Below, piece after piece: positions 6,727 to 61,311 of a DNA stretch of 64,000 nucleotides. The stretch comes from Bacillales bacterium. Its GTDB lineage: Bacteria; Bacillota; Bacilli; Bacillales; DASSOY01. The DNA lies in assembly GCA_035700025.1 (NCBI GenBank), contig DASSOY010000003.1, positions 1-64,000 of the forward strand, read 5' to 3'. The notes beneath the pieces were generated by a model, which saw only the letters and a list, made by a program, of their open reading frames with translations, did no database searches and was not told the DNA's origin. Every line of letters starts with the position of its first letter. Position 1 is the stretch's first letter. The translations under genes were made by a program, and so were the position numbers.

Positions 6727-7572
6727 TCAATATCGACTGGAAAAATACACAAACCGCTCCCCGGCAACCATCATATGAAACTTTTGGTTCGGATACGTAT
6801 GAAATAAGTAATCTACAAAATAAGCAGGATTATCCGTATTGTTCGGAAACAAATCAAAGTGAATCGGGATGAGCATGTCGGCTTGCACGCAGTCACTGAA
6901 ATCGCAAGCTTCCCGAAAATTCATGTTCCCGATGATGCCGCGGCGCGTACGCGCGTAATCTCCGCCGTTGATCGGCAAAAAAACGATGTCCGGAGCAAAA
7001 GCTGCCACTGTTTCCACGATTTTTTCGTCAACAATCGTGTCCCCGCTATGAAACAACTTAACACCATTTCCTTCGATCAAATAACCTAAATGTTCTGCGT
7101 TTCCATCGGCATCAAATACATACGTATCATGCGCGACAGCGATCGGTGTGATTCGAAAACCGCCGATTGAAAACCTTTGGTTTTGACACGCAGCAATGAT
7201 TCGCTCTTCGCCGATCCTTTCCGGCAGCAGATGACGATGGGCGGGCGGCACAGCAAATTTCGCCGCTTTCGCCGTTTTCGCAATGCCCTTTAACGTACAG
7301 GGATCTAAATGGTCATCGTGTTCATGAGTGATGATTACCCCATCAAGCGCCGACAATTCTTCCGGCGCAAACGGCGCGGGAAATGCACGAACAAATTCCG
7401 TCCCCGGCTTATTTTTCTCAATGCAATCGGTCAAATACGGATCAATGCAAATCGCTCCATCATCTTTCGATCCTTTGATGATCACACCCGATTGCCCTAA
7501 GCTCCAAATCGCAACCGATCCGCACGGCAGATCGGTTGCATCCATTTGCTTCTTAAGCGACTTCACTTTCAA
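6727..7572 (-). CDS. Metallo-beta-lactamase-fold hydrolase, UlaG-like (possible sugar lactonase)
   Basis: About 281 aa. The metal-binding motif HEHDDHLD (~residue 85) and later FHSGDT and PIHFDLFPNNTDNP identify the UlaG branch of the metallo-beta-lactamase fold; UlaG itself opens L-ascorbate-6-phosphate lactone. Beside a transporter, sugar dehydrogenases and galactonate dehydratase, a lactonase that opens galactono-lactone is a reasonable inference. The start is uncertain: TTG 7572 has AGGAGG 5 nt upstream, while GTG at 7578 overlaps the Shine-Dalgarno. Last gene before the terminator at 6652-6684. Confidence 0.85.
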   Translation of the reverse strand: MKVKSLKKQMDATDLPCGSVAIWSLGQSGVIIKGSKDDGAICIDPYLTDCIEKNKPGTEFVRAFPAPFAPEELSALDGVIITHEHDDHLDPCTLKGIAKTAKAAKFAVPPAHRHLLPERIGEERIIAACQNQRFSIGGFRITPIAVAHDTYVFDADGNAEHLGYLIEGNGVKLFHSGDTIVDEKIVETVAAFAPDIVFLPINGGDYARTRRGIIGNMNFREACDFSDCVQADMLIPIHFDLFPNNTDNPAYFVDYLFHTYPNQKFHMMVAGERFVYFSSRY

Positions 7573-7599
7573 TGGCACCTCCTGCCTCCGTTTTCCATT

Positions 7600-8358
7600 T
7601 TACCTTCCCATCCAACCCCCGTCTACGACGATCGTTTCTCCGTGGATGTAGTTCGATGCTTCGGAGGCAAGAAACAGCGCTGCACCGGCAACATCTTCCG
7701 GTTTCCCCCACCTGCCTGCAGGAATGCGTTCAAGAATTTGCCGATTTCGCGTTTCATCTTCCATTAAAGCCGTGTTCATGTCCGTTGCCATGTAACCGGG
7801 GGCAATTGCATTAACATTGACGCCATGCTTTGCCCATTCGTTCGACAGAGATTTCGTAAATTGAGCGACCGCTCCTTTGCTCGCCGCATAAGCCGGGACG
7901 GTGAGACCGCCTTGAAACGAAAGCAATGAAGCAAGATTAACAATCTTTCCTTTTCCTTGCTTCAACATCGCTTTCCCTGCAGCTTGACAAAGAAAGAAAA
8001 CGGTTTTTGCGTTCACGTTCATTACATCGTCCCAATATTGTTCGCTGAATTCAACAGCTGGCGCGCGTCTTTGAACGCCGGCATTGTTGACCAATATGTC
8101 CAATTTCCCAAAATGGTGAATCGTCTCGTCGACGATCGTTTTCACTTGCGATGCGTTGGTTAAATCAAAACGAATCGTCACACACTTTTTTCCTAACTTT
8201 TCAATCTCCGCAACCGTATCCGATTCTTGTTCGGATCGTTGCACGATTGCGATATCCGCCCCTGCGCGAGCGAGGCCGAGCGAAATTCCTTTCCCCAGCC
8301 CCCGGTTCCCTCCGGTTACAACCGCAACTTTCCCTTCAAGGTTAAATAATTCGAGCAT
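7600..8358 (-). CDS. kduD: 2-dehydro-3-deoxy-D-gluconate 5-dehydrogenase-like SDR
   Basis: 252 aa classical short-chain dehydrogenase/reductase. It has TGGNRGLGKG for NAD(P) binding, NNAG, a serine in NLASLLSF, the catalytic YAASK and a C-terminal VVDGGWMGR. The sequence is of the KduD type, which interconverts 2,5-diketo-3-deoxygluconate and 2-keto-3-deoxygluconate with NADH/NAD, so it would feed or drain the same KDG pool as the kinase. ATG 8358 follows AGGAGG by 6 nt. No kduI partner is present in this window, so the substrate may instead be a related keto-sugar acid. Confidence 0.85.
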   Translation of the reverse strand: MLELFNLEGKVAVVTGGNRGLGKGISLGLARAGADIAIVQRSEQESDTVAEIEKLGKKCVTIRFDLTNASQVKTIVDETIHHFGKLDILVNNAGVQRRAPAVEFSEQYWDDVMNVNAKTVFFLCQAAGKAMLKQGKGKIVNLASLLSFQGGLTVPAYAASKGAVAQFTKSLSNEWAKHGVNVNAIAPGYMATDMNTALMEDETRNRQILERIPAGRWGKPEDVAGAALFLASEASNYIHGETIVVDGGWMGR

Positions 8359-8387
8359 GCAGGTCCTCCTCGTTCGATCATAGCATT

Positions 8388-8409
8388 CACCCCCTCGGAA
8401 AAGGGGGTG
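8388..8409 (-). other. Intercistronic hairpin between ALDH and kduD
   Basis: CACCCCCT and AGGGGGTG form a perfect 8-bp G/C-rich stem with a 6-nt loop between the two genes. No T-run follows on the minus strand, so it is more likely an mRNA stability or processing element than a terminator. Confidence 0.55.
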
Positions 8410-8417
8410 ATGAGAAA

Positions 8418-9878
8418 TTAAGACAAAATGTTGCGGAACGTAATGTTTTTCACTTGCGTCAATTCTTCAAGCGTAACCGACAAGCCTTCTCGGCCAAGTC
8501 CGCTCTTCTTGTAACCGCCGAACGCCGCCACATCTGGACGATACAAGCCGGTTCCGTTAACCGCGACAGATCCTGTTTGCATTTTATAGGCCGTGTTCAT
8601 GGCGCGCGCCATATCTTGAGTGAACACTGAACCGCTCAAGCCGTAAATCGACTGATTTGCAATTTTCACGGCTTCTTCATCGGATTCGAACGAGATGATC
8701 GGCAAAACCGGACCGAAGATTTCCAAGTCTCCGGCGACCTCCATTTCCGGTGTCACTCCGCCTAATACGGTTGGCGTAACAAAACATGGATCGAGACGCT
8801 CCCCGCCGTATAAACGATGAGCACCAGTTTTTACCGTCGCTTCAATTTGCTCCGCCACTGTTGCTGCCGCTTTTTCGCTGATAAGCGGCCCTACTTTCGT
8901 ATCCCGCTCCATCGGATTTCCTACTTTATAAGTCTCTAAAGCTTGAATCAATTTATGCGTGAACGGTTCTACGACATTTTTTTGCACAATAAACCGTTTG
9001 CTGGCACAACAACATTGCCCGTTTGCGATCGTTCTTCCAAAAATCGCATGATCGACGACCTCATCAAGGTTTGCATCATCGAAAACAACCATTGCGTCGT
9101 TGCCTCCGAGTTCGAGGAAGACGCGCGAAAGATGTTTGGCCGCATTTTGCGCCACTCGCACCCCAGTGTTCGTATCGCCGGTCATACTCACAATGTCGAC
9201 TTTAGGACTCAATGCCAAAATTTCGCCGACAACCGATCCACGGCCCGTAACAATTTGCATGACATTCCCCGGGACCCCTGCTTCATACAACAACTCGGTT
9301 ACACGAATCACCGTTAATGGGGCTTCGGTTGCCGGTTTTAACACGACAGCATTGCCGGCTGCCAAGGCAGGAGCAACTTTATGTGAAAACAAATCAATCG
9401 GAAAATTGAATGGTAGAATCGCACCCATGACTCCGATTGGCTCACGCCTCGTCATGTACACGTCTTTTTCAAGCCCAGGCTGCGCGTCGAGCGGCGCTGT
9501 GATGCCGTATAAGCTTTTCGATTTTTCCGCGAATCCTTTAAACAGTCTCGTTCCCGTATCGATTTCCCATTCGGCTTGCTCAAAAGGCTTGCCGTTTTCT
9601 TTTGTCAAAATCTCCGCCAATTCCGCTTTATGGTCTTGGAGCAAGTCAGCAAATTTAACCAAAATTTCATAACGTTCATGTGTCGGCGTTTTCGCCCAAA
9701 CTTCTTTACCGGTTTGCGCAATATCGAGTGCCTCTTCGACATCTTCAGGCGTTGCCATCGGAATGTAGTCGATCACTTCCTGTGTAGCTGGATTCGAAAC
9801 GGCAGTTCTTTCGCCGTCACGAGCGGTTCTTGCTTCCCCGTTAATGAGCATTTTTCCTAATCCGTTCATTGATGTCAT
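8418..9878 (-). CDS. NAD(P)-dependent aldehyde dehydrogenase
   Basis: 486 aa, the usual length of the ALDH superfamily. Oxidises an aldehyde to the acid. Visible catalytic elements: Asn in LPFNFP (~157), Glu in LELGGND (~255) and the nucleophilic Cys in GQCCCASKR (~290); three adjacent cysteines there are unusual. The cofactor-binding KPATEAP segment is present. The start overlaps the permease stop by 4 nt (ATGA). Substrate unknown; in this operon a sugar-derived aldehyde (glyceraldehyde, lactaldehyde or a ketoglutarate semialdehyde) is possible. Confidence 0.93.
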   Translation of the reverse strand: MTSMNGLGKMLINGEARTARDGERTAVSNPATQEVIDYIPMATPEDVEEALDIAQTGKEVWAKTPTHERYEILVKFADLLQDHKAELAEILTKENGKPFEQAEWEIDTGTRLFKGFAEKSKSLYGITAPLDAQPGLEKDVYMTRREPIGVMGAILPFNFPIDLFSHKVAPALAAGNAVVLKPATEAPLTVIRVTELLYEAGVPGNVMQIVTGRGSVVGEILALSPKVDIVSMTGDTNTGVRVAQNAAKHLSRVFLELGGNDAMVVFDDANLDEVVDHAIFGRTIANGQCCCASKRFIVQKNVVEPFTHKLIQALETYKVGNPMERDTKVGPLISEKAAATVAEQIEATVKTGAHRLYGGERLDPCFVTPTVLGGVTPEMEVAGDLEIFGPVLPIISFESDEEAVKIANQSIYGLSGSVFTQDMARAMNTAYKMQTGSVAVNGTGLYRPDVAAFGGYKKSGLGREGLSVTLEELTQVKNITFRNILS

Positions 9879-10882
9879 GTGGACAACCTCCTGCTATTCT
9901 TTCTTGTAAGTAGCCTCGACTGAAGGATAACGATAACGATCAAAAATACGCCGCGAATGACCGGCTGCCACCATGAATTGATGTCGCCTTCCAGATTGAT
10001 AATGTTCAAAATGACACCGAGTAACATGACGCCGTAAAAAGTACCGGAAATATTGCCTTTACCGCCGGTAAGAATCGTTCCGCCAATGACGACGGCAGCA
10101 ATCGCATCCAGTTCCCAAGTATTTCCCGCCACGGCTTGAGCAACTCCTCCGAGCCGCGAAGCGAGCACCACGCCGGCAAGACCGGAGAGCGCTCCATTGA
10201 TCACGTAAACCCAGATTTTTATACGATCGACTTTCAATCCCATCAATTTGCTCGCCTCTTCATTTCCGCCGACCGAATAAATATGGCGTCCAAATCCCGT
10301 TTGTTTCAACATCCACGCCGCAACAGCCGCCAGCAAAACAAAAATCCAAATAGGCGTCGGTACACCAAAAAACGACCCGCGGCCGAAAAATTTATAGATT
10401 TCATGGATGGAAGAGTCGACCGTCAATGAATGCTGATTCGTTACGGCATAAACCAATCCGCGTATACCGATCATCGTTGCGAGCGTAACGATGAAAGGAT
10501 CGATTTTGCCTTTCGTAATGAAATATCCGTTGACAAACCCTAAAGCACCGGTTATTACCAACGGTACGAGCAAAGCGGCCACTAGTCCATATTGGGAAAA
10601 GTACGCAGATACGATGCCGCCAAGCGCAAGCAAAGAGCCGACAGACAAATCGATACCGCCCGTTAAAATGACAAGCGTCATGCCGATCGCCACAATCCCG
10701 AGCATGCTGTTTTGCCGCAAAACATTCAAGATGTTCATTTGAGTTAAAAATGAATCATAGCGAATCGAAGCGGCGATAACAATCAAGATAAGCGCTGTGA
10801 GTGCGCCGTGTTTTTGCAAAAAATGGCTGACTTTCGCAAAGCCGGATCGGCTTATCGGCGGATGTTTGATATCGGTAGCCAC
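9875..10882 (-). CDS. Sugar ABC transporter permease, RbsC/YjfF-like
   Basis: 335 aa with about 9-10 hydrophobic segments and the CUT2 permease hallmark GMTLVILTGGIDLSVGS (~residues 65-81). The GTG start at 10882 follows GAGGAGG by 8 nt; the longer open frame to 10933 is not supported. With the next gene it makes a two-permease CUT2 importer. Gene order (binding protein, ATPase, permease, permease) equals E. coli ytfQ-ytfR-ytfT-yjfF, and the C-terminal SWWQPVIRGVFL resembles YjfF. Confidence 0.92.
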   Translation of the reverse strand: MATDIKHPPISRSGFAKVSHFLQKHGALTALILIVIAASIRYDSFLTQMNILNVLRQNSMLGIVAIGMTLVILTGGIDLSVGSLLALGGIVSAYFSQYGLVAALLVPLVITGALGFVNGYFITKGKIDPFIVTLATMIGIRGLVYAVTNQHSLTVDSSIHEIYKFFGRGSFFGVPTPIWIFVLLAAVAAWMLKQTGFGRHIYSVGGNEEASKLMGLKVDRIKIWVYVINGALSGLAGVVLASRLGGVAQAVAGNTWELDAIAAVVIGGTILTGGKGNISGTFYGVMLLGVILNIINLEGDINSWWQPVIRGVFLIVIVILQSRLLTRKNSRRLST

Positions 10883-10895
10883 GGTGCAAACCTCC

Positions 10896-11882
10896 TCATG
10901 CCTGATTTCCTCTCTGTAAATAGACGGCAACAATAATAATGGCGGCCTTCAACACTAACGAATAGGAATGCGGGATATCGTTCATATTGAAGGTTGTCGT
11001 AATCAAACCCATTAAGATCGCGCCAATTACCGTTCCCCAAATGTATGGCCGGCCTCCGGTCATTAACGTTCCGCCGACGACGACAGCCGCGATTGCGTCA
11101 AGTTCGATTAACTGTCCAATGTTGGTTGCATCTGCCGCAGCAAGCCTTGATGTTTCAATAATTCCCGCAAAACTCGCTAACACCGCAGCAATGACGTAAA
11201 CAGATATTTTCACGAAGTTGACTTTGACACCGGCAAGTTGCGCCGCTTTCTCGTTGTCGCCGATCGCCTCAATGTATCTCCCGAAAGACGTATATTTAAC
11301 AACCAGGTAAAACAACAATGCCGTTATTAGCATGATCAAAACCGGAATTGGAATGGCTCCGATTTCTCCTTTTCCAATCGTTTCAAAGCTAGGCTTGTCA
11401 AACGACACAAGGTAGCCGTCCGTCGCGATTTGTGCAATGCCGCGCCCGGCAATCATCATCGCAAGCGTGACAATAATTGGTTGGATTCGGAAATAGGAAA
11501 TAATCGTTCCGTTCAGTAAACCGATGATGGCAGCAACGACTACAGCGCCAAGGACCATCATCCACATGCTGCTGTGTAAGAAAAATGTTGTCGTGACGGC
11601 TGCGATTGCCATGATCGCGCCGACGGAAAGATCGATGCCGCCGGTGGCGATCACGAGTGTCATGCCGATCGAAACAAGGACTGTCGTAGATACATGAAGC
11701 AGCACGTTCCATAACGTTTGCATGTCGAGGAAATTGTTCGTCACGATTGAGTTAAAAATCACCAAGGCTACGAGAACCGCGACTGCCCCGTATTTACGGC
11801 TCACTTCCCGAAAGGACGGGAGTTCGCGCTTCGGTTTTGGAGATTCAACCACTGGCTTTTGCTCAACTTTTAAATCTTTCAT
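10896..11882 (-). CDS. Sugar ABC transporter permease, YtfT-like
   Basis: 328 aa membrane protein with ~9 hydrophobic segments. A cytoplasmic N-terminal tail of ~35 residues precedes the first membrane helix. GMTLVIATGGIDLSVGA, IQPIIVTLAMMIAGRG and ELDAIAAVVVGGTLMTGG closely resemble E. coli YtfT. Start overlaps the ATPase stop by 4 nt. Forms the membrane channel with the permease at 9875-10882. Confidence 0.93.
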   Translation of the reverse strand: MKDLKVEQKPVVESPKPKRELPSFREVSRKYGAVAVLVALVIFNSIVTNNFLDMQTLWNVLLHVSTTVLVSIGMTLVIATGGIDLSVGAIMAIAAVTTTFFLHSSMWMMVLGAVVVAAIIGLLNGTIISYFRIQPIIVTLAMMIAGRGIAQIATDGYLVSFDKPSFETIGKGEIGAIPIPVLIMLITALLFYLVVKYTSFGRYIEAIGDNEKAAQLAGVKVNFVKISVYVIAAVLASFAGIIETSRLAAADATNIGQLIELDAIAAVVVGGTLMTGGRPYIWGTVIGAILMGLITTTFNMNDIPHSYSLVLKAAIIIVAVYLQRGNQA

Positions 11883-13426
11883 GACACAACCGTCCCCTTT
11901 TGTTCGGACTCGATCCTCGAACTTGAAGCAATCATTTGCATGATTTGTTTTTCGTTGCGGTCTTCTCCAGTGAGTTCCCCGACTTTTTCACCGTCGCGAA
12001 TGACGGCAATGCGATCCGTATGATGAACCAATTCCTCGAATTCCGACGAAATCATTAATATGCTTAAACCCTCTTTTGCCATATCCGCAATAAGAGAATG
12101 GATCTCCGCTTTTGCACCAACATCAATTCCTCGTGTTGGTTCATCAAGGATCAACAATTTCGGATTCGTTGCCAACCATCTAGCCAACAACACTTTTTGC
12201 TGATTGCCGCCGCTCAAGTTTTTGATTTTTTGATTGGCATTTGGCGTTTTGATGCCCATATTGCGAATGTATCGTTCGACAATTTCATTTTGTGTTTTCC
12301 GCGATAGGATGCCCCACTTTGAAATTTTCGGAAGCATTGAAATCGTTAAGTTTTCCTTCACCGACATGTTCGGAATGATGCCTTCAGACTTTCTTTCTTC
12401 CGAACAATAGCCGATGCCGAGTTTCACCGCGTCATAAGGAGCTTTCAAATGTTTTTCTTCACCCATAAACAACACTTGGCCTTTATCTGCCCCGTGTACG
12501 CCGAAGATCACTTGTGCCGTTTCGGTGCGTCCCGATCCGAGCAAACCGGCCAATCCAAGCACTTCCCCTTTCCGAATGTGCAAGTCGACGGATTTTACTT
12601 TGTTGCCTTGGGAAATGCCTTTCAATTCTACAATCACTTCTTCATCATCGCTGATATTGGCTGCTTTTTGCTTCGATAGTTTCTCGACTTCTTCTTCCGT
12701 CCTGCCGATCATATGGGAAATTAATTGAATTTGGTTGAGTTCCTGCACGAGCCAGGTGCCGATGTAATGACCGTCTCTCAACACGGAAATGCGGTCGCAA
12801 ACCGAGTAAATTTCATCAAGACGATGACTAATGTAAAGAATCGACACACCTTCGCTTTTCAGTTTCCGGATGACTTTAAACAAGATTTGCACTTCTTGGT
12901 CGTTTAACGAAGACGTCGGTTCATCCATGACAACCAATTTCGCTTTCATCGAAATTGCGCGAGCGATTGACACCATTTGTTGCACCGCCGCACTTAATTC
13001 CGATACAGGCGTTCGCACATCGACTTCAATGCCCATGTCTTTCAAGATCGCTTCCGATTCTTGATGCGCTCTTTTCCAGTCGATCGATCCCCATCGTTTT
13101 TTCGGTTCCCGTCCCATGAAAATGTTTTCCGTAACGGAAAGGAACGGACTCAAACTAATCTCTTGATAAATCGTGCTGATTCCGTTCAATTGTGCATCGA
13201 GAGCAGATTGAAAGTTCACTTCTTCACCATCGAAGACGACGGTCCCTTCATCTTTGCCGTAAACGCCGGTCAAAATTTTGATCAACGTTGATTTGCCCGC
13301 ACCGTTTTCCCCCATGAGCGCATGCACTTCGCCTTTTTCCATTTCGAAAGTAACGTCGTCAAGCGCTTTAACGCCGGGGAAACTTTTCTTAATATGGTCC
13401 ATCTCCAGCAATTTCCGTTTTGACAT
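11879..13426 (-). CDS. Sugar ABC transporter ATP-binding protein, RbsA/YtfR family
   Basis: 515 aa fused double nucleotide-binding protein. The first domain has a full Walker A, GENGAGKST (~39-47), Walker B VVMDEPTSSL and a degenerate signature (LSAAVQQM). The second has a degenerate Walker A (LLGSGRTE) but a canonical signature LSGGNQQKV and LLILDEPTRGID. This asymmetry is normal for RbsA/MglA-type ATPases. It powers the two permeases encoded downstream. The 58-nt space to the binding-protein gene contains a hairpin. Confidence 0.95.
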   Translation of the reverse strand: MSKRKLLEMDHIKKSFPGVKALDDVTFEMEKGEVHALMGENGAGKSTLIKILTGVYGKDEGTVVFDGEEVNFQSALDAQLNGISTIYQEISLSPFLSVTENIFMGREPKKRWGSIDWKRAHQESEAILKDMGIEVDVRTPVSELSAAVQQMVSIARAISMKAKLVVMDEPTSSLNDQEVQILFKVIRKLKSEGVSILYISHRLDEIYSVCDRISVLRDGHYIGTWLVQELNQIQLISHMIGRTEEEVEKLSKQKAANISDDEEVIVELKGISQGNKVKSVDLHIRKGEVLGLAGLLGSGRTETAQVIFGVHGADKGQVLFMGEEKHLKAPYDAVKLGIGYCSEERKSEGIIPNMSVKENLTISMLPKISKWGILSRKTQNEIVERYIRNMGIKTPNANQKIKNLSGGNQQKVLLARWLATNPKLLILDEPTRGIDVGAKAEIHSLIADMAKEGLSILMISSEFEELVHHTDRIAVIRDGEKVGELTGEDRNEKQIMQMIASSSRIESEQKGTVVS

Positions 13427-13450
13427 TGTGTCACCTCCGGTGCAATTGCA

Positions 13451-13472
13451 CTGCCGGCCCTTCAGCCGGCAG
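13451..13472 (-). other. Hairpin after the binding-protein gene
   Basis: CTGCCGGC and GCCGGCAG make a perfect 8-bp stem with a 6-nt loop between the binding protein and the ATPase. No T-tract follows. Such hairpins commonly stabilise the binding-protein message so it is made in excess over the membrane parts. Confidence 0.65.
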
Positions 13473-13484
13473 TCTGTTCAAATT

Positions 13485-14492
13485 TTAAAATGCGGAATCA
13501 ACATATTTTTTCGCGTTGCTCTTGTCGTAGAACAAATCTTCGTTGATGATTTTCGTTGGGACTTCTTCCCCATTTTCAAGCTTTTTGATGACATCGAAGG
13601 CCACCGGTCCGAAATCGGGGCTGCACTGGACGATTGCATTGATTTTTCCGTCGATGATTGCTTGCAAACCATCTTTCGTTCCGTCGATGGAGACAATTTT
13701 GATGTCTTTGCCCGGTTTTTTGCCGTACGCTTCGATCGCGTTGATTGCGCCGAGCGCCATCTCGTCGTTATGGGCATAAACGGCCGTTACCTGGTCACCG
13801 TAGGACTGCAACAAGTTTTCCATAACCTTCTGTCCTTTGGCACGAGTGAAATCGCCGTCTTGTGAGGCAATAATTTCCATTCCTGGGACATCTTTGATAA
13901 CGCTTACAAAGCCTTCATGACGATCTTTTGCGACGGAAGAACCTGTCGTTCCGAGGAGCTCAATGATTTTGGCTTTACCTCCGGTTTCCTCTTTCAACCA
14001 TTTAGCGGCCCGCTTTCCTTCTTGAATGAAGTTGGAACCGATAAACGTCACATAATCTTCACCTGGGGTTCCCTTTGCTTCGCGGTCGATCAAGATAACC
14101 GGAATACCTGCTTTTTTCGCAGCATCCAAAGCCGGAGCCAACCCGAGATATTCACGCGGCGCAAGCAAGATGTAATCGACCCCTTTGGCAATCATGTCTT
14201 CAACATCGGAAACTTGCTTGGCGGTATCGCTGTGCGCGTCCGTGTAAACCAACTTGATGCCGCGTTTTTTGGCTTCCTCTTTAATGCTTTTCGTTTCCGC
14301 CACGCGCCACGGATTGTTGTTTTCCATTTGCGAAAATCCAACAACGAGTTGACCGTCGTCTTTCCCAGCGTTTCCGGAATCGTTGCTGTTGGATGCATCG
14401 CTGTCCGATACGCTGTCCGTGCTCGCGCATCCAGCTAGTGCGAAACTAAAAACCATCATGATAGCCAAGACGAAATTAAGCTTTTTCAACAT
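13485..14492 (-). CDS. Sugar-binding lipoprotein, YtfQ (galactofuranose-binding) type
   Basis: 335 aa. A signal peptide ends in a lipobox (LAGC, Cys22), so the mature protein is membrane-anchored outside the cell. After a Ser/Asp-rich linker comes a periplasmic-binding-protein type I fold (RbsB family). Diagnostic stretches shared with E. coli YtfQ, the galactofuranose-binding protein, include VGFSQ, NPWRVAETKSIKEEAKKRG, QDGDFTRAKGQKVME and VYAHNDEMALGAI. First gene of the transport block; the upstream alcohol dehydrogenase ends 28 nt away. Ligand assignment to a furanose sugar is inference from this resemblance. Confidence 0.9.
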   Translation of the reverse strand: MLKKLNFVLAIMMVFSFALAGCASTDSVSDSDASNSNDSGNAGKDDGQLVVGFSQMENNNPWRVAETKSIKEEAKKRGIKLVYTDAHSDTAKQVSDVEDMIAKGVDYILLAPREYLGLAPALDAAKKAGIPVILIDREAKGTPGEDYVTFIGSNFIQEGKRAAKWLKEETGGKAKIIELLGTTGSSVAKDRHEGFVSVIKDVPGMEIIASQDGDFTRAKGQKVMENLLQSYGDQVTAVYAHNDEMALGAINAIEAYGKKPGKDIKIVSIDGTKDGLQAIIDGKINAIVQCSPDFGPVAFDVIKKLENGEEVPTKIINEDLFYDKSNAKKYVDSAF

Positions 14493-53572: not shown

Positions 53573-53628
53573 AAAAAAACACTGATCATGTCACACGAGC
53601 ACGAAGCTCTTGGACCGATCCGTGTTTT
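53573..53628 (-). terminator. Terminator of the tad operon
   Basis: Outer stem AAAACACGGATC/GATCAGTGTTTT (11 of 12 pairs) with an inner GAGC/GCTC hairpin and a T7 tail on the minus strand, directly after the tadC stop. Confidence 0.7.
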
Positions 53629-54544
53629 AATTGTTTGCAAACGCGTCCATGAATTGTAAAACCGCCGGTCCTAACAAAACGATAAAGAGACTAGGAAAGA
53701 TAAACAGCACGAGCGGAAAAAGCATTTTGATCGGCGCTTTCATCGCCTTTTCTTCGGCTCGTTGTTTTCGCTGCTCCCTTACTTCTTCGGATTGAATTCG
53801 CAGTACTTTCACTAGACCGATGCCTAATTTCTCTGCCTGTAAAATGTTGCTGATCAACACCCGCAGTTCGTTCAGCGTCAAACGCTCCCTTACCCCGCTC
53901 AAAGCATCCTTTCTCGTTTTCCCGAGTCGAATTTCCTCCAGGCAGCGGTGAAATTCCTCCGGCAGAACCCCGCTTTTGCGCGAAACCACCTTGCCAAGCG
54001 CCGAGTCAAACCCGAGTCCGGCTTCAAGGCTGACGGTCAGGAGATCAAGGATATCCGGAAGTTCTTTCAAGGCTTTTTCATTTCTCGATTTCGTCTTCAT
54101 TCGCAAATAAAAACCGGGCAAAGCCGCAGCGACCGGAACTGAGAACGTGACGAACAGGATTGTGATCGACGAACGATTGCCGAGCAATTCCCCGTAAAAA
54201 AATGCGATCACCGGAAAAATTAAAAGCAGCGTAAGCTTGAACAAGCGGTACTCCACCGGTCCCATCCCAAGTGGACTTCCGGCTCGCAACAACTTGATTT
54301 CCAGTTTCGCTGCCTGTTCGCGTTTCATTTTCCGCTGGAAATTCCGTCTTATTTCACCCCAGAGTGGAGATCCGACTCTTTCCCACAACGATTGTCTCTC
54401 ATTCTCGTCGCTGGGGACAGCCGCTCCGTCTTGATGAAAGACGGAGGAAATGCGCGATTGCACGAGTTTTCTTCTTTCTTCGCGAACCGTGGTCCAAAAC
54501 ATGCAAATCAGCAGGAATGTGCAAAAGAATGTGATGTAAAGCAT
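53627..54544 (-). CDS. tadC: Tad/Flp pilus inner-membrane protein TadC
   Basis: 305 aa. T2SS-F domain protein with an N-terminal helix, paired central helices (~100-145) and a C-terminal helix (FPLVLFIFPSLFIVLLGPAVLQ). ILDLLTVSLEAGLGFDSALGKV is the family T2SSF segment. With TadB it forms the membrane platform for pilus polymerisation. Last gene of the tad operon. Confidence 0.93.
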   Translation of the reverse strand: MLYITFFCTFLLICMFWTTVREERRKLVQSRISSVFHQDGAAVPSDENERQSLWERVGSPLWGEIRRNFQRKMKREQAAKLEIKLLRAGSPLGMGPVEYRLFKLTLLLIFPVIAFFYGELLGNRSSITILFVTFSVPVAAALPGFYLRMKTKSRNEKALKELPDILDLLTVSLEAGLGFDSALGKVVSRKSGVLPEEFHRCLEEIRLGKTRKDALSGVRERLTLNELRVLISNILQAEKLGIGLVKVLRIQSEEVREQRKQRAEEKAMKAPIKMLFPLVLFIFPSLFIVLLGPAVLQFMDAFANN

Positions 54545-54547
54545 GCA

Positions 54548-55510
54548 CTACACCTCAATTTTCGTCAATTTCCTTATCATCAAGAATCCAACCGTGCAAG
54601 AAACGGCGCCGGCGGCAACCATAACGATGCCGATTGGATTAGTAAACAGTGCCCCAATGTATTGCGGCTGGATCAAATACAGAACGAAGCCTAAGATGAC
54701 CGGCATTAAACCGATAATCAAACCGGACAACCGGCCTTGCGCCGTCAACGTCAAAATATTCCTTTGGATCCGGTTGCGGTCCCGAATCGTTTGAACGATT
54801 TTGTCTAGAACTTCTGCCAAATTGCCGCCGACTTGGCGTTGGATTAAGATCGCTTGAATCATTAGCTCCAAATCTTCACTCGGCATACGGTCTTTCAATT
54901 CCCCGAGCGCACTTTCCATTGAATTTCCATACTGAATTTCTTTCAATAACGTTTTTATCTCATCTTTCATCGGTGGATCCGCTTCTTCGATGACCGTCAT
55001 GAGCGCTTGTGAAAAACTGAATCCGGCACGAAGCGACCCGATGATCGTCGTCAACATGTCGGGAAGCTGCTCATTAAAGGCTGTCAGCCGGTCCCGTTGT
55101 TTCTTTTTCAGCCACCATTTCGGCATCATCCAACCTGCGAATGCGCCAGTAATCAATAGAATCCAGTTTCCGGCCAATAAATAAAAAATTCCTCCTCCGA
55201 GCAGCACCGCCATCCAGCGAAACAACACATATTCTTCTGGTTTTAACGGAATCCCTGAACGAGACAGCATCTTTTCTAGTTTTGCATTGTGTCTTTTGTT
55301 GCCGATCTGTCCCTTCAACCGTTGTTTGAACAGTTGTATAGTAACGAGTTGACTAAACCGTTTGCGATCGAACCCTTTTTGATCTTGCAGTTCCAAATAA
55401 TGCTGAATCCGTTTCGTCAAGCGTTTGTCGGAAGGGGCAAATAACCGGGATATCGCAAAAACCCACAAAAAGGATGTAAAAGAAACGAACAACAAAATCA
55501 ACAGTTTCAT
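54548..55510 (-). CDS. tadB: Tad/Flp pilus inner-membrane protein TadB
   Basis: 320 aa. N-terminal helix, central helices at ~100-140, T2SSF region LPDMLTTIIGSLRAGFSFSQALMTVIEEADPPMKDE (~150-185), and two C-terminal helices. ATG overlaps the cpaF stop by 4 nt. Partner of TadC. Confidence 0.93.
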   Translation of the reverse strand: MKLLILLFVSFTSFLWVFAISRLFAPSDKRLTKRIQHYLELQDQKGFDRKRFSQLVTIQLFKQRLKGQIGNKRHNAKLEKMLSRSGIPLKPEEYVLFRWMAVLLGGGIFYLLAGNWILLITGAFAGWMMPKWWLKKKQRDRLTAFNEQLPDMLTTIIGSLRAGFSFSQALMTVIEEADPPMKDEIKTLLKEIQYGNSMESALGELKDRMPSEDLELMIQAILIQRQVGGNLAEVLDKIVQTIRDRNRIQRNILTLTAQGRLSGLIIGLMPVILGFVLYLIQPQYIGALFTNPIGIVMVAAGAVSCTVGFLMIRKLTKIEV

Positions 55511-56943
55511 TCAGACCAATCTCCTTCGGCAACAAAAACGCTTGTCGGGATTTTCATGCCTGATTGTTCCAACCGCTCGTAGAACAAAGGTCTTACCCCG
55601 GTCGGCATCATTTGCCCGATGATTTTGCCTTCGGCGTCAACGCCCTCCTGTTTAAAGACGAAAAGATCTTGCAGAACAATAACGTCCCCTTCCAACCCTT
55701 GCACTTCCGTAATTTTAGTAATTTTCCTCGTTCCGTCTTTTAAACGGGCCTGTTGAATAATCACATCAATGGCCCCGGCGATTTGTTCGCGAATCGCTTT
55801 GACAGGCAAATCAACACCCGCAAGTAAAACCATCGTTTCCAGACGAGCGACCATGTCGCGCGGACTGTTTGCATGTCCGGTCGTCAACGAACCGTCGTGA
55901 CCGGTATTCATTGCTTGAAGCATGTCCAAAGCTTCTCCGCCGCGCACCTCGCCAATAACAATTCGGTCCGGACGCATGCGCAAGGAATTTCGTACGAGAT
56001 CACGAATCGTTATGCTTCCTTTTCCTTCAATGTTCGGCGGCCGCGATTCCAATGACACGACGTGATCCTGACCGAGTTGAAGCTCGGCTGCATCCTCAAT
56101 CGTGACGATGCGCTCATCGTTTGGAATGAAGGAGGACAATACATTCAGCGTGCTCGTCTTCCCTGAACCGGTTCCGCCGCTGACAAACAAGTTCAGACGC
56201 GATTTCACGCATGCTTCGATGAAAGTCGCCATTCCCCTCGTCATCGTTCCGAACCGAATCAAATCTTCGACTTGAAACGGATCTTTCGAAAATTTTCGGA
56301 TCGTAACGGTCGGACCATTCAACGCCAGCGGCGGCACGATGGCATTGACACGTGATCCGTCGGGAAGGCGCGCATCGACCATCGGACTGCTTTCGTCGAT
56401 TCTCCTTCCGAGCGGTGCAACAATTTTTTCAATAACATTTAACACGTGTTCGTTATCTCTGAAAAAAACGTTGGACAGTTCGATTCGTCCCTTTCGCTCG
56501 ACGTAAACGCGGTTTGGACCGTTCACCATCACTTCAGATATTTCTGGATCCAACAAAAGTGGATTGATCGGTCCATATCCGGTCAAGTCGTTGATCAACT
56601 CTTCAACGACTTTCTTGTGGCTGACCACTCCGCGCAGCGACTCGTCTTCTTTAATCATTTCAATGGCGATGGCATCCAGTTTCGGAATGATCTGTTCGAC
56701 TTCTTCCTCATTTAATTCGTCGAGCACTTTTTTATGCAAGCGATTCTTTAATTGTTGCTGCTTCTTTTGCAATTCGACGTTTACTTGAGGTTTCGGCCGC
56801 GGTTCACCATGCTTGCCTTCGCGCAAGCTGGAAATCAAGTCTTGCACTTGTGCACCCGGTTTTGGCACACTACCGTGATTCGGCTGCTCACTGCCGTTCC
56901 CCCGTTCCTCCCCCATCTTTTGCATGCGTTCCAAAAGACTCAT
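55507..56943 (-). CDS. cpaF: Tad secretion ATPase CpaF (TadA)
   Basis: 478 aa. N-terminal variable region to ~85, then [31 protein letters not shown]. Walker A is [13 protein letters not shown] (~255-267), Asp box [11 protein letters not shown] and Walker [28 protein letters not shown]. It is the hexameric ATPase that drives Flp pilus assembly and retraction. The ATG overlaps the cpaE stop by 4 nt. Confidence 0.97.
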
Positions 56944-57746
56944 CGTTTCTTCTCCTTCTTCGCATTTCGATTCGGCAACATTTTCGGAAATATCCGCTTG
57001 TTTTTTGACGGGACCGTCGTGATCACATGATTGGTAGTAAGCAGTTCCGCCATTTTGAAAACGGACTTGGCCACCTCAGTTTTTCCTTTGTTAACAACGA
57101 AAGGCACCCCGATATTCAACGACTGGGATACCGTTTTGAAATCATTCGGAAGATAAAATAGATCATTTTCGTCTTCCCCTAAAATAGCTGGTACGTCCGA
57201 CGCCTTAATGACGCTTTCCATCGTCGATCGATTGACAACGACGCTCGTTTTCTCACGAAAACCTAACGTAGTTAACGTTTCCAACATCAATTTCGTGTTT
57301 TTCAATCCGGGCATGACCAAGTCCGTCGTCAACAGCACTTCGTCGGCTTGTTCAATGAGAAACAAATTGCTCTCCTGCAAACCGGAGGCAGTGTCGACGA
57401 GGACGTAATCATTTTTCTCACGCAGCCAACCGAGAACGGCCGTGATCACCTTCTCGGTGACAAGATCCGCATATTCGGGCTGATCCGGTGCGGTCAGCAC
57501 TTTCACGCCGCTGTCGTGCTGGCTTAAATAGCTCGCGAAACTAACAAGTTCCATATGGTCAAAATTTTCGACGACATCTTTGATGGTAAACGGTGATTGA
57601 AGATCCAAAGCCAAGCCGACGTCGCCGAATTGGAAATCCCCGTCGAGAACGCCGACCTGCATGTTTTTTTTGCAAAGCGCCACCGCCAAATTGACGGTCA
57701 GAACGGTCTTTCCGATTCCTCCTTTTGCGCTGCATACGGCAATCAT
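56940..57746 (-). CDS. cpaE: CpaE-like ParA/MinD ATPase of the Tad system
   Basis: 268 aa. Deviant Walker A SAKGGIGKTVLTVNLA at the very N-terminus, LDGDFQFGDVGLALDL and VLVDTASGLQ. The N-terminal receiver-like domain of longer CpaE proteins is absent. It likely positions the pilus machine in the cell. ATG 57746 has AAGGGGG 5-6 nt upstream; ATG 57779 is a weaker alternative overlapping cpaB. Confidence 0.9.
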   Translation of the reverse strand: MIAVCSAKGGIGKTVLTVNLAVALCKKNMQVGVLDGDFQFGDVGLALDLQSPFTIKDVVENFDHMELVSFASYLSQHDSGVKVLTAPDQPEYADLVTEKVITAVLGWLREKNDYVLVDTASGLQESNLFLIEQADEVLLTTDLVMPGLKNTKLMLETLTTLGFREKTSVVVNRSTMESVIKASDVPAILGEDENDLFYLPNDFKTVSQSLNIGVPFVVNKGKTEVAKSVFKMAELLTTNHVITTVPSKNKRIFPKMLPNRNAKKEKKR

Positions 57747-57765
57747 CTTTCCCCCTTGCCGTCTT

Positions 57766-58461
57766 TTAGCTGCCGCCATCGTTGTTCCCGCCCTCGTTCG
57801 GAAGCAGCCTGCTGTTCAAAATGAGTTGGAGTTTGCCTTGTTCCGCCGCACGAATGACTTTCAGCGCATCTTCCGGTTTCAGCTCGAGCGTTACCGCTTC
57901 ATATTTTGTTCGACCATCTTTTGAATCCGGTTCGATCATCGTGCTCCCGACAGCCAAAACCCGTACATTGGAGACAAGGGTTTCAGTCTTTGTTTGTTTC
58001 TTTTGATTGACTTGCGTGGTAATGCTGACGACGACGTCAACTTTATCCTCCGGCTCAATTAAATTCGATACCGACCGAACGTAATCGACCCCGACCGAGA
58101 CTGCGCGAAAACCGGGTGTGATTTTTCGGGAGACAAAGACGTTTTCATCCAGGTGACTGCGAACGTGGTTCGTTAACACTGGTTCGCCCGCCGCCATGTC
58201 GACAGTTGCGTAAAGTCCGGCAACCGCATCGAATTTCGGCGTCATAGACTCGAGTTCCCGGGTTTCAGGATATTGGACGATAGTCAGTTTCTCTTTCGTG
58301 ATGCGTTCGTTCTTTTTGATCGCTTCTTTGGCGACGACAACATTGACCGTGTTCCCGTCGGAAGCTTGTCCAGTATCGAGGTGCTGCATATAACGATAAA
58401 ATAAATAAGTTGTAAACCCGGCCATCACGATTGCCAGTACCAAAATCAACTTCGATTTCAT
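57766..58461 (-). CDS. cpaB: Tad pilus assembly protein CpaB (RcpC)
   Basis: 231 aa. N-terminal membrane anchor (LILVLAIVMAGFTTYLFYRY), then a SAF domain (VVAKEAIKKNERITKEKLTIVQYPE) and the RcpC/CpaB region (RAVSVGVDYVRSVSNLIEPEDKVDVVVS). Located outside the membrane; in Gram-negatives it supports the secretin, whereas in this monoderm it may act at the cell wall. Confidence 0.92.
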   Translation of the reverse strand: MKSKLILVLAIVMAGFTTYLFYRYMQHLDTGQASDGNTVNVVVAKEAIKKNERITKEKLTIVQYPETRELESMTPKFDAVAGLYATVDMAAGEPVLTNHVRSHLDENVFVSRKITPGFRAVSVGVDYVRSVSNLIEPEDKVDVVVSITTQVNQKKQTKTETLVSNVRVLAVGSTMIEPDSKDGRTKYEAVTLELKPEDALKVIRAAEQGKLQLILNSRLLPNEGGNNDGGS

Positions 58462-58472
58462 GAGTTCAACAC

Positions 58473-59381
58473 CTATTCCGTTAATCGAATCGCATAGGCA
58501 CCGCGATTCGATCCTTGTGAATTGATATACCCCGTACCCGTTCTTCTAATGAAAATTCCGTGAATCGTCTTTCGTTGACTGTCCAATGGTTCCGTAATGT
58601 AAAAATAAGCAAAACCGGTGATTTTCACGGTTTTTAATTGATTTTGATCGACTTGGTAACGCTCATAGACCGGGATCAAAATCACCCGCGGACAGTCGCG
58701 GTCTTCATAATTGCCGTCCGGGCATGCGTCAATGAGCTCTTGCACCGCCTGTTTCGTTTTCCCGGCAATGTTTCCGGTTTCTGTTTCAACAATATCGCCG
58801 ACTCGCAATTCCCCATCGAACCCATAGCGCAAATTGTCATAATACCGATCCGCCCCGCCGCCGCCCAATGACAACACGCCGAAATTCCCGGTATCCTCCA
58901 GCGTTTGATCGACTTTCAACTCATATACTTTGTTGTAGATCAAATCGACGGAATCGTCGATGCCGAGTGGTGCCGCTCCTGCGGCCCGTCCCATTGTGCC
59001 GATCTCTGCGGTCGCATTGGCCGACACTGTTCCCGTATCGATTCCGAATATGGACATGAAGGACAAAGGTACGGTCTTCTTCAATACGATGCTCACTTGG
59101 TCGTTCATGACGATATCCAAATGTTCCACATCATTTTCATTTCCGTGAGCAACCAAAATCCGTTCAACGACTTGTTGAACGTCGGATGGAGTGTCGGTCA
59201 GTTCCTGCGCCCCTGACAATACTGCGGCATCAGCCGCTTTTTGCAATGCAGCTCGTCTTTCGTACAGCATTCCCCCGTCCAGTGCCAAACCCGTGATCAT
59301 TAACATTCCTACCAAAGCTAAGGAAAACAGAAGCAACGTACTTCCTTGTTGTTGTTGAAACAGCCGTTTAATGATTTTCAT
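58473..59381 (-). CDS. TadG-like pseudopilin/adhesin protein
   Basis: 302 aa. N-terminal QQQGSTLLLFSLALVGMLMITGLALDGGMLYERRAALQKAADAAVLSGA is the TadE/TadG-like membrane segment followed by the conserved helical region. The extracellular part (100-302) has no recognised domain; it lacks the VWA domain of some TadG proteins. RBS GGGAGG. Probably a minor pilin. Confidence 0.85.
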   Translation of the reverse strand: MKIIKRLFQQQQGSTLLLFSLALVGMLMITGLALDGGMLYERRAALQKAADAAVLSGAQELTDTPSDVQQVVERILVAHGNENDVEHLDIVMNDQVSIVLKKTVPLSFMSIFGIDTGTVSANATAEIGTMGRAAGAAPLGIDDSVDLIYNKVYELKVDQTLEDTGNFGVLSLGGGGADRYYDNLRYGFDGELRVGDIVETETGNIAGKTKQAVQELIDACPDGNYEDRDCPRVILIPVYERYQVDQNQLKTVKITGFAYFYITEPLDSQRKTIHGIFIRRTGTGYINSQGSNRGAYAIRLTE

Positions 59382-59394
59382 CTAGACCACCTCC

Positions 59395-59778
59395 CTATTC
59401 GACCCGGATTGTGGAATCGACCGAAATTACGAGGGGAGAAGGTATGATGGCAGAAATGAACGGCGTGATCAAATGAAAGGGATATCGCAAGGTCACCGTG
59501 ACATAGTCGCCGGATTCGCGATCCGCTTCGGACGGCGAAATCGCAACGTTTAATGAGGAAGGATCTGAAAGCTCGACATCTTCCCTCGCAAAAGAAACGA
59601 TTCGGTCGTCCCCTTCTCCCAAACCCGCCATTCGAACCGTATCTTGTGCGACCGACTGAAGGTTCAAATATGTGAACAACACTCTCCCCATATCAAAAAT
59701 GCCGGAGAACAGCAAAAGCAGCAACGGCAAAATCAACGCCATTTCTACTAAAGACTGTCCTCGTTCGTTTCGGATCAC
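59395..59778 (-). CDS. tadE: TadE-family minor pseudopilin
   Basis: 127 aa. RNERGQSLVEMALILPLLLLLFSGIFDMGRVLF contains the prepilin-like cleavage site (Gly before Gln-Ser-Leu-Val-Glu) and hydrophobic helix typical of TadE. GTG 59778 has GGGAGG upstream; the longer frame to 59862 is rejected because it overlaps tadV. Confidence 0.92.
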   Translation of the reverse strand: MIRNERGQSLVEMALILPLLLLLFSGIFDMGRVLFTYLNLQSVAQDTVRMAGLGEGDDRIVSFAREDVELSDPSSLNVAISPSEADRESGDYVTVTLRYPFHLITPFISAIIPSPLVISVDSTIRVE

Positions 59779-59782
59779 TTCA

Positions 59783-60322
59783 TCACCTCCCATTAAACAT
59801 AAGACAAATGATCGTCCCTGCAGCAATTGCGATACCGTACGGATATGTAAGCGTAAGCGCATGTTTGTCGATGTTCAACGGCATCCTCAAACCGTGCAAA
59901 TGCGAAAATAAAAACCACGTCATTGATTTTAACCGTTTCGCCGCGCCTTTCCTGAAGACGAGGATTCCAACAGCGACGGCTGCGCCGGCAAGTGCCATGT
60001 ATATAGCGGAATGAAACACAAATACGGAGCCTTTTGCCGCTCCGACGAAAGCCAACAACTTAACATCACCCGCGCCCATCCCTCCAAACAAATACGGGAC
60101 GATTAATATTCCGAATCCGACCAACAACCCGCCGAAAGCGGTTCCGAGCTCCGGAACCCCCCCGTTCATAAAATGTAGAAGAAAAGCCGCTAAAAACGCA
60201 GGATAAACGACGATGTTATAAATTTTTCGCGTTTTCAAATCCGTCACCGTACAAATAATCAAGACGATGATCAACATCGCGTCCAACATTACGGCAATGT
60301 TGCGCACAAATTCAACAATCAT
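59783..60322 (-). CDS. tadV: Prepilin peptidase TadV (CpaA, A24 family)
   Basis: 179 aa, six membrane helices. The two catalytic aspartates are in CTVTDLKTRKI and GMGAGDVKLLAFVGA (GxGD motif). It processes the Flp, TadE and TadG prepilins. ATG 60322 after GAGGGATG. It follows flp but is separated by a terminator. Confidence 0.94.
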   Translation of the reverse strand: MIVEFVRNIAVMLDAMLIIVLIICTVTDLKTRKIYNIVVYPAFLAAFLLHFMNGGVPELGTAFGGLLVGFGILIVPYLFGGMGAGDVKLLAFVGAAKGSVFVFHSAIYMALAGAAVAVGILVFRKGAAKRLKSMTWFLFSHLHGLRMPLNIDKHALTLTYPYGIAIAAGTIICLMFNGR

Positions 60323-60344
60323 AATGAACCATCCCTCATGTTTC

Positions 60345-60376
60345 AAAAAAAGGGTCTTGCGCAAACGACAAGACCC
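60345..60376 (-). terminator. Terminator between flp and tadV
   Basis: Perfect 8-bp stem GGGTCTTG/CAAGACCC with a 9-nt loop and a seven-T tail, just after the flp stop. It should cut most transcripts here, giving many more pilin messages than assembly messages. Confidence 0.85.
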
Positions 60377-60390
60377 CTTCCCTTTTCTTC

Positions 60391-60579
60391 TTATGTCGTC
60401 GTGCCTCCGTTAGCACCCGTGATGGCGGTAAGTACTTTCTCAAAAAGAATGACGATCTGTTCTCTCAAACTGACGAGAATCGTCACGACGCCAACCGCAA
60501 TCACACCGAGGACAAGCCCGTATTCCGTCATCCCTTGTCCTTCTTCTTCCTTGAACAAATCAATGAATTTCTTTAACAT
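60391..60579 (-). CDS. flp: Flp major pilin
   Basis: 62 aa. Short basic leader with EEEGQGMTEYGLVLGVIAVG: processing after the Gly preceding QGMTEY leaves the conserved Glu at +5 and Tyr at +6 of the mature pilin. The hydrophobic helix is ~40 residues long and the tail is Gly/Thr-rich. RBS AAAGGAG. Structural subunit of the pilus. Confidence 0.95.
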   Translation of the reverse strand: MLKKFIDLFKEEEGQGMTEYGLVLGVIAVGVVTILVSLREQIVILFEKVLTAITGANGGTTT

Positions 60580-60596: not shown

Positions 60597-60938
60597 TTAA
60601 ATAAATTGGACCGTTTGACCGACTTTTGTTTCCGTTGCCGAGATCGTTCCCGGCGGAAGTTCCACTACGGCGAGAGTTTCCTTCGAACCTTTTGCCAGCT
60701 TGCCTGGCCGTAAATGTTCTGCAACCGCTCCAACGCGATTGTTCGAATCGAGATACAAAACATCAATGGAATAGTTCATAAAAAACGTGTGAATCGAACG
60801 GCATGGTTTAATGAGCAAGGCCTCTCCCGGCGGAAATTGCTTTGTAAACATGAGCCCTTTCAGTCTTTCAACAAACTTGCGAGCTTGGTTGACATTTTCC
60901 GCGATCGTTTCCCCATTATCGACGTTGAGCAGTTTCAT
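60597..60938 (-). CDS. DUF192 protein at the head of the tad operon
   Basis: 113 aa, whole-length DUF192 (ERLKGLMFTKQFPPGEALLIKPCRSIHTFFMNYSIDVLYLD). ATG 60938 has GAGGAGG 8 nt upstream; the longer frame to 61094 would run through the riboswitch terminator. No signal peptide is visible. Function unknown; DUF192 genes are often next to Tad loci. First gene behind the c-di-GMP riboswitch. Confidence 0.9.
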   Translation of the reverse strand: MKLLNVDNGETIAENVNQARKFVERLKGLMFTKQFPPGEALLIKPCRSIHTFFMNYSIDVLYLDSNNRVGAVAEHLRPGKLAKGSKETLAVVELPPGTISATETKVGQTVQFI

Positions 60939-61004: not shown

Positions 61005-61040
61005 AAAAAAACCCCCCGCCAATTCCCGAAGGCGGGGGTG
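61005..61040 (-). terminator. Riboswitch expression-platform terminator
   Basis: ACCCCCGCC and GGCGGGGGGT form a 9-10-bp G/C stem with a 10-nt loop and a T7 tail, ~15 nt after the c-di-GMP aptamer and ~65 nt before the DUF192 ATG. Its position marks it as the switchable terminator. Confidence 0.88.
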
Positions 61041-61054
61041 TATCACAGTCCCAT

Positions 61055-61145
61055 CTTTCGGCAGCTGGCTGACATTGTGCGGTTGACCCCGCACTTTAGT
61101 CCCTGTAGCTTTGCGTCGCTGGCTTTCGCCAGTTTTGCCTTTATC
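61055..61145 (-). promoter_or_regulatory. c-di-GMP-I (GEMM) riboswitch controlling the tad operon
   Basis: Read on the minus strand, it carries the GEMM-I landmarks in order: AAAGGCAAAACTGG, a helix capped by a GAAA tetraloop (CTGGCGAAAGCCAG), the invariant GACGCAAAGC, a central GGGACTAAAGT, the second hairpin (GTGCGGGGTCAACCGCAC) and the closing GTCAGCCAGCTGCC. A strong terminator follows at once. Binding of c-di-GMP probably switches termination, coupling Flp pilus production to the sessile/motile state. Whether ligand turns the operon on or off cannot be told by eye. Confidence 0.92.
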
Positions 61146-61208
61146 GCGAATATTGTCGTATTTGCTGTGTCCTTACCATAATCGAGATGGAACATGTTTA
61201 AAACCCGA

Positions 61209-61290
61209 CGAACAGCCTATTTTTTCCTGTCATTCTCACAAAAGAGGGACTAAAGTCGGATGCAGCCGGCTTTTTTGAATAGGCTGTTCG
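61209..61290. repeat. 82-bp element bounded by 13-bp inverted repeats
   Basis: CGAACAGCCTATT (61209-61221) and AATAGGCTGTTCG (61278-61290) are perfect inverted copies around a 56-bp core. It lies between the ytcI terminator and the riboswitch. It could be a long hairpin in the tad leader or a small mobile-element relic (MITE-like); no flanking target duplication is obvious. Its core holds a 12-nt stretch complementary to the riboswitch. Confidence 0.55.
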
Positions 61291-61311
61291 AATCATTTTG
61301 CGTGAAGAGCG

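Follow-up and report, generated by a model that had tools for sequence, protein, structure and literature searches.

Among described systems, the closest to the leader considered here is Cd1 (Cdi-1-3) of the C. difficile flgB operon, a c-di-GMP-I riboswitch with a terminator independent of the aptamer, an antiterminator in which the aptamer 3' strand pairs with the 5' strand of the terminator, and OFF logic (PMC9262584, PMC6366702); in this layout the structures [PA][TH] coexist and AT constitutes the antiterminator (PMC9262584). All seven functional class I switches of C. difficile are OFF switches, with flagella among their targets (PMC6366702). In the Bacillaceae, class I aptamers with terminator-based platforms are represented by Bc1 and Bc2 of the Bacillus cereus group, of which Bc2 precedes a collagen adhesin gene and is an ON switch in B. 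thuringiensis (PMC6366702), and Bc1 showed no response to c-di-GMP in vivo (PMC11218506); both serve genes other than those of a Tad pilus. As Bc2 belongs to class I and is yet an ON switch, the class of an aptamer alone cannot give the sign of control. Pilus genes are preceded by related elements in two further cases, namely Cdi-2-4 of the Gram-positive spore-former C. difficile, where a c-di-GMP riboswitch with a terminator lies upstream of the pilA1 type IV pilus genes (PMC6366702), and the pilM riboswitch of Geobacter metallireducens, which has a homologous GEMM-I aptamer fold and an ON layout with the aptamer 3' strand sitting inside the terminator (PMC9262584).

The 64,000-nucleotide stretch of DNA analysed here (hereafter referred to as the window) carries a leader that we read, with a probability of roughly 0.8 and on the basis of its sequence, as a c-di-GMP-I riboswitch that turns transcription of a Tad/Flp (type IVc) pilus operon OFF. 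It resembles Cd1 in the class of the aptamer, the independence of the terminator, the composition of the proposed antiterminator and the predicted OFF logic, and differs in that Cd1 controls flagella and the window switch pili, the sign of the latter being a prediction. Cdi-2-4, in contrast, is of the c-di-GMP-II class, serves a non-Tad pilus and has ON polarity, whereas the pilM switch responds to cGAMP, is ON and belongs to another pilus system in a Gram-negative organism. The aptamer, the terminator, the operon, the conservation of their association and the conserved strand complementarity were all obtained computationally. The elements of the leader are as follows.

61057 to 61149, minus strand: c-di-GMP-I riboswitch aptamer, full-length match to the RF01051 model
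61050 to 61064, minus strand: A strand, the end of the aptamer with the following GGG (CUGCCGAAAGAUGGG), 5' half of the proposed antiterminator, from folding and from complementarity kept in relatives
61006 to 61040, minus strand: intrinsic terminator (ACCCCCGCC-UUCGGGAAUU-GGCGGGGGG, U run), from sequence, inner-stem prediction and folding

The preliminary description, which had recognised the landmarks of a GEMM-I aptamer in the sequence alone and proposed a covariance search, was borne out by cmscan against Rfam, in which positions 61149-61057 of the minus strand match RF01051 end to end (model positions 1-87) with 78.7 bits and an E-value of 8.7e-14, well above the gathering cut-off of 35 bits. 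The interval of 61005-61145 assigned to the whole element was right within a few bases. RF01051 is the single Rfam family matched in the 64 kb window and has two matches in the genome as a whole, the Tad-leader aptamer and one other. The landmarks found include the GAAA tetraloop, GACGCAAAGC, GGGACTAAAGT and CAGCTGCCGAA, and the ligand-contact bases are kept in AAGGCAAA, GCAAAGC and GCCGAA; we take these bases to be equivalent to G20, A47 and C92 of Vc2. The G before the C in AAGGC, presumably Vc2 G20, separates c-di-GMP from cGAMP aptamers; the window has it, as does every one of 91 distinct leaders except L085. By sequence and covariance model the element is confirmed as a bona fide c-di-GMP-I aptamer, for which binding of the ligand is predicted. 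The exceptional leader, L085, carries a divergent aptamer at 3676-3762 (GACACAAAGC, GGC lost; 47.7 bits), with an otherwise normal Tad operon behind it.

The first gene of the operon begins at 60938, 3' of the terminator, and the ten genes, as identified with Pfam, follow in the order DUF192, flp, tadV, tadE, tadG, cpaB, cpaE, cpaF, tadB and tadC.

60597 to 60938, minus strand: DUF192 gene, first of the operon (PF02643, E 3.3e-18), ribosome-binding site GAGGAGGTGA just upstream
60391 to 60579, minus strand: flp, major pilin (PF04964, E 2.4e-4, below the curated cut-off; GQGMTEYGL motif)
59783 to 60364, minus strand: tadV, prepilin peptidase (PF01478, E 1e-16)
59395 to 59862, minus strand: tadE, minor pilin-like (PF07811, E 9.8e-14), true start probably 3' of the listed start of the reading frame
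58473 to 59381, minus strand: tadG-like gene (PF13400, E 2.4e-10)
57766 to 58461, minus strand: cpaB/rcpC (PF16976, E 9.2e-27; PF08666)
56940 to 57779, minus strand: cpaE/tadZ (PF13614, ParA-type ATPase)
55507 to 56943, minus strand: cpaF/tadA, motor ATPase (PF00437, E 9e-68)
54548 to 55510, minus strand: tadB, platform protein (PF00482, E 2.4e-21)
53627 to 54544, minus strand: tadC, platform protein (PF00482, E 2.3e-19)

The corresponding Pfam matches, in gene order, are DUF192, Flp_Fap, Peptidase_A24, TadE, Tad, RcpC/SAF, ParA/AAA_31, T2SSE, T2SSF and T2SSF. The gene set of a monoderm Tad/Flp system, comprising the Flp pilin, an A24 prepilin peptidase, TadE/G-like pilins, the CpaF/TadA ATPase and TadB/TadC, is present, and no secretin is expected in a monoderm Tad system; by gene order and Pfam identities, the operon is complete, as had been proposed, in the monoderm sense. 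The DUF192 gene accompanies Tad operons both with and without the riboswitch and was rejected as a marker of the switch, being also present in the switch-free Tad operons L043-L046, L086 and L088-L091.

The expected intrinsic terminator was found just 3' of the aptamer, at 61040-61006 of the minus strand, as CCCCCGCC-UUCGGGAAUU-GGCGGGGG followed by a U run; its inner stem (61032-61013) was predicted by a program and the full stem obtained by inspection and folding. Its 5' arm and loop are hereafter called the T strand and its 3' arm the H strand. The window sequence, the leaders of relatives and folding agree that the terminator hairpin does not include the aptamer 3' strand. That strand (CCGAAAG, then GGG) has its complement instead in the 5' arm and loop of the terminator (CCC, then CUU(U)CGG), and in the window the pairing even extends to GCCAGCUGCCGAA with UUCGGGAAUUGGC. 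On folding, A:T pairing has a probability of 0.92-0.97 in window transcripts stopping short of the terminator 3' arm, and is displaced by T:H pairing once that arm has been transcribed. The window antiterminator is weaker (-13.8 kcal/mol, z -1.5) than those of relatives, and in the full-length leader the terminator is thermodynamically favoured over it, so that the switch must be kinetic.

It follows from this complementarity that the free RNA is predicted to antiterminate and the bound RNA to terminate, which gives a direction to the control that the preliminary description had left undecided. At low c-di-GMP, the aptamer 3' strand (CCGAAAG and GGG) would pair with the emerging terminator 5' arm and loop, and the resulting antiterminator would let RNA polymerase enter DUF192-flp-tad. 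At high c-di-GMP, the bound ligand would hold the CCGAAAG/GGG strand inside the aptamer, leaving the terminator to fold alone and transcription to end ahead of DUF192. Pili would be produced at low c-di-GMP and repressed as its level rises.

The same arrangement is seen in relatives, where the typical aptamer 3' end, ...UUACCGAAAG-AU-n-GGG, is complementary to a terminator of the form CCC-n-CUUUCGGUAA...GGGG-U. Over 77 leaders, the A:T duplex has a mean z of -3.3 against shuffled terminators; leaders folded short of the terminator 3' arm form a median of 11.96 A:T pairs, against 1.0 with a shuffled T strand, and the A:T probability exceeds 0.5 in 66 of the 77 as against 36% of the shuffled, several of the 11 that fall short being cases of terminators misplaced by the script. 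Some Paenibacillaceae terminators misplaced in this manner (L094, L096, L119, L131) were read by eye. Covariation of the A:T antiterminator was not found in the Tad set, where cognate pairs were no better than swapped ones, as the A strand hardly varies. The distance from aptamer to terminator in relatives ranges from about 20 to over 120 nt. A terminator that lacks the aptamer 3' strand and lies at a variable distance beyond the aptamer agrees with the OFF layout of Cd1 and not with the ON arrangement of pilM. The layout recurs, with different sequences, in other c-di-GMP-I leaders of the order that carry a terminator. In two leaders, L060 and L061, the aptamer is retained and the terminator 3' arm lost; control may have been lost there, or may act at another level.

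The association of aptamer and operon was examined by comparing RF01051 positions with those of CpaF in 60 relatives of the order, none of which belongs to the same family. In all ten relatives with a CpaF at least 70% identical, as well as in the window, RF01051 lies upstream of cpaF on the same strand, at a distance of about 4.1-4.8 kb. With about five aptamers per 4 Mb genome, we estimate the probability that one falls by chance into any such 6 kb of that strand at well under 1% in each case. A wider search of 397 genomes of the order yielded 52, the source genome included, with a close CpaF ortholog; upstream DNA was examined for 50 operons of the other genomes, one of which (L087) was too short to judge. 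RF01051 scores above the gathering cut-off in 44 of the 49 assessable orthologous operons, one of them weakly (L085), and was not found in the remaining five (L086, L088-L091), whose CpaF proteins are among the least similar of the set (67-72% identity), nor upstream of eight more distant Tad operons. Three changes account for the distribution of the switch over the CpaF tree, against a mean of 9.4 with shuffled labels. The E-value of the window match and the kept position in these 44 operons rule out a chance match to RF01051, and the kept orientation and distance, with the absence from other Tad clades, rule out an accidental neighbour. Among the genomes collected in GTDB, a DNA pattern for the aptamer end matched 72 stretches, 61 of them with the aptamer core, and Flp or DUF192 motifs occur in the downstream DNA examined for 45 of these 61; among the rest, some lead straight into a cpaF-like gene, some break off at the end of the available sequence and a few precede other genes. 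The genera represented include Neobacillus, Mesobacillus, Rossellomorea, Anoxybacillus, Halobacillus, Pontibacillus, Aquibacillus, Paenibacillus and Cohnella; as Paenibacillaceae are among them, the arrangement is not confined to one family.

Upstream of the aptamer, comparison of 46 leaders of relatives brought out TATNAT, which resembles a -10 element, and, 21 nt further upstream, the box TTTGnnGGATT, with no clear -35 element. The window has a similar layout, GGGTT-N21-TATGGT, at 61206-61175 of the minus strand.

61175 to 61180, minus strand: putative -10 element TATGGT, placed by the TATNAT layout of relatives
61206 to 61202, minus strand: GGGTT, 21 nt upstream of TATGGT, the counterpart of GGATT in relatives, with a presumed function

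A TATNAT element without a clear -35 and with a conserved TTTGnnGGATT box makes an activator site or an unusual promoter quite possible, which speaks against the earlier suggestion that no protein regulator is needed. About six nt after TATNAT, the leaders of relatives begin with a 5' hairpin, P0 (GAGAUCAGU...ACUGAAUCUC and variants), the 3' arm of which lies directly 5' of the aptamer. Its arms change together, as in GAGAUCAGU/ACUGAAUCUC, GAGAACAGU/ACUGUAUCUC and AGAUUCAAC/GUUGAAUCU (e.g. L066, L081, L034, L041, L145), and in an arm-swap test cognate arms paired better than swapped ones in 2000 of 2000 shuffles; P0 was not recognisable in the window leader. Directly upstream of the putative promoter, the window contains a near-perfect inverted repeat (61205-61292; GAACAGCCTATT...AATAGGCTGTTC) around a GGGACTAAAGTC stretch on the plus strand, which occurs in a single copy in the genome and was rejected as a mobile element.

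The genome (2.84 Mb, 90 contigs) contains a paralogous Tad operon (L032, contig C32 of G000, 7000-14349), the CpaF of which is 79% identical to that of the window, and in which no riboswitch was found even at a permissive Rfam threshold. As the two CpaF proteins are sisters in the CpaF tree, the switch was probably lost from the C32 operon after duplication. The second c-di-GMP-I riboswitch of the genome (L001; G000:C34:8592-8678) lies before an EAL phosphodiesterase gene, with GGDEF-EAL genes adjoining. With eight GGDEF and five EAL domains encoded, the organism is, as judged from its gene content, one that both makes and degrades c-di-GMP. Flagellin is also encoded, as is Spo0A, in line with the spore-forming member of the Bacillota that had been supposed.

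The proposed OFF switch has to be weighed against three other readings. An ON switch, in which c-di-GMP blocks termination and activates the pilus genes, has precedents in the type IV pili of C. difficile (class II) and in cap/cbpA of B. thuringiensis (class I) (PMC6366702), and would agree with the usual tie of pili and adhesion to high c-di-GMP and the sessile state. It is nevertheless unlikely, since a terminator that does not use the aptamer 3' strand cannot be blocked by the ligand-bound aptamer; the conserved complementarity instead joins this strand to the terminator 5' arm and loop, and the wide range of spacings in relatives indicates a terminator that stands alone.

A little less probable still is a decayed or locked element, which binds the ligand ahead of a constitutive terminator and leaves the operon mainly to its promoter. 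Bc1 of B. thuringiensis, for which such constitutive termination is reported and which showed no in vivo response to c-di-GMP (PMC11218506), would be a parallel, and the lower score of the window antiterminator, the lack of a recognisable P0 and the switch-free paralogous operon point in the same direction; against this, the window has preserved both aptamer and antiterminator well, with a pairing that is even extended. That the true ligand is another cyclic dinucleotide, the element being a 3',3'-cGAMP variant of the RF01051 family, is very improbable. The cGAMP riboswitches were indeed originally annotated as c-di-GMP-I, but reports of them come from Gram-negatives (PMC9262584), and the c-di-GMP-type G of AAGGC is kept in the window and the leaders of relatives, L085 excepted.

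The OFF switch so favoured consists of known parts, the combination and the predicted polarity of which appear to be undescribed: in the open-access literature searched we found no paper that connects Tad/Flp pili of Bacillota with a c-di-GMP riboswitch, though Weinberg 2007 or Sudarsan 2008 may list such genes. It predicts that, across a large group of spore-forming Gram-positives, c-di-GMP acts directly on the transcription of Tad pilus genes, and does so in the reverse sense to the pilus switch best known from Gram-positives, that of C. difficile, where c-di-GMP activates type IV pili. The switch-free sister operon in the same genome provides a natural control. If the prediction is true, Tad pili would, like flagella, belong to the lifestyle that goes with low c-di-GMP. 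The chances are about even that the Tad pilus is, in Bacillales and Paenibacillaceae generally, a low-c-di-GMP organelle of the motile state, its operon being switched OFF on sessile commitment; such pili would then serve the motile cell, for instance in first surface contact or DNA uptake.
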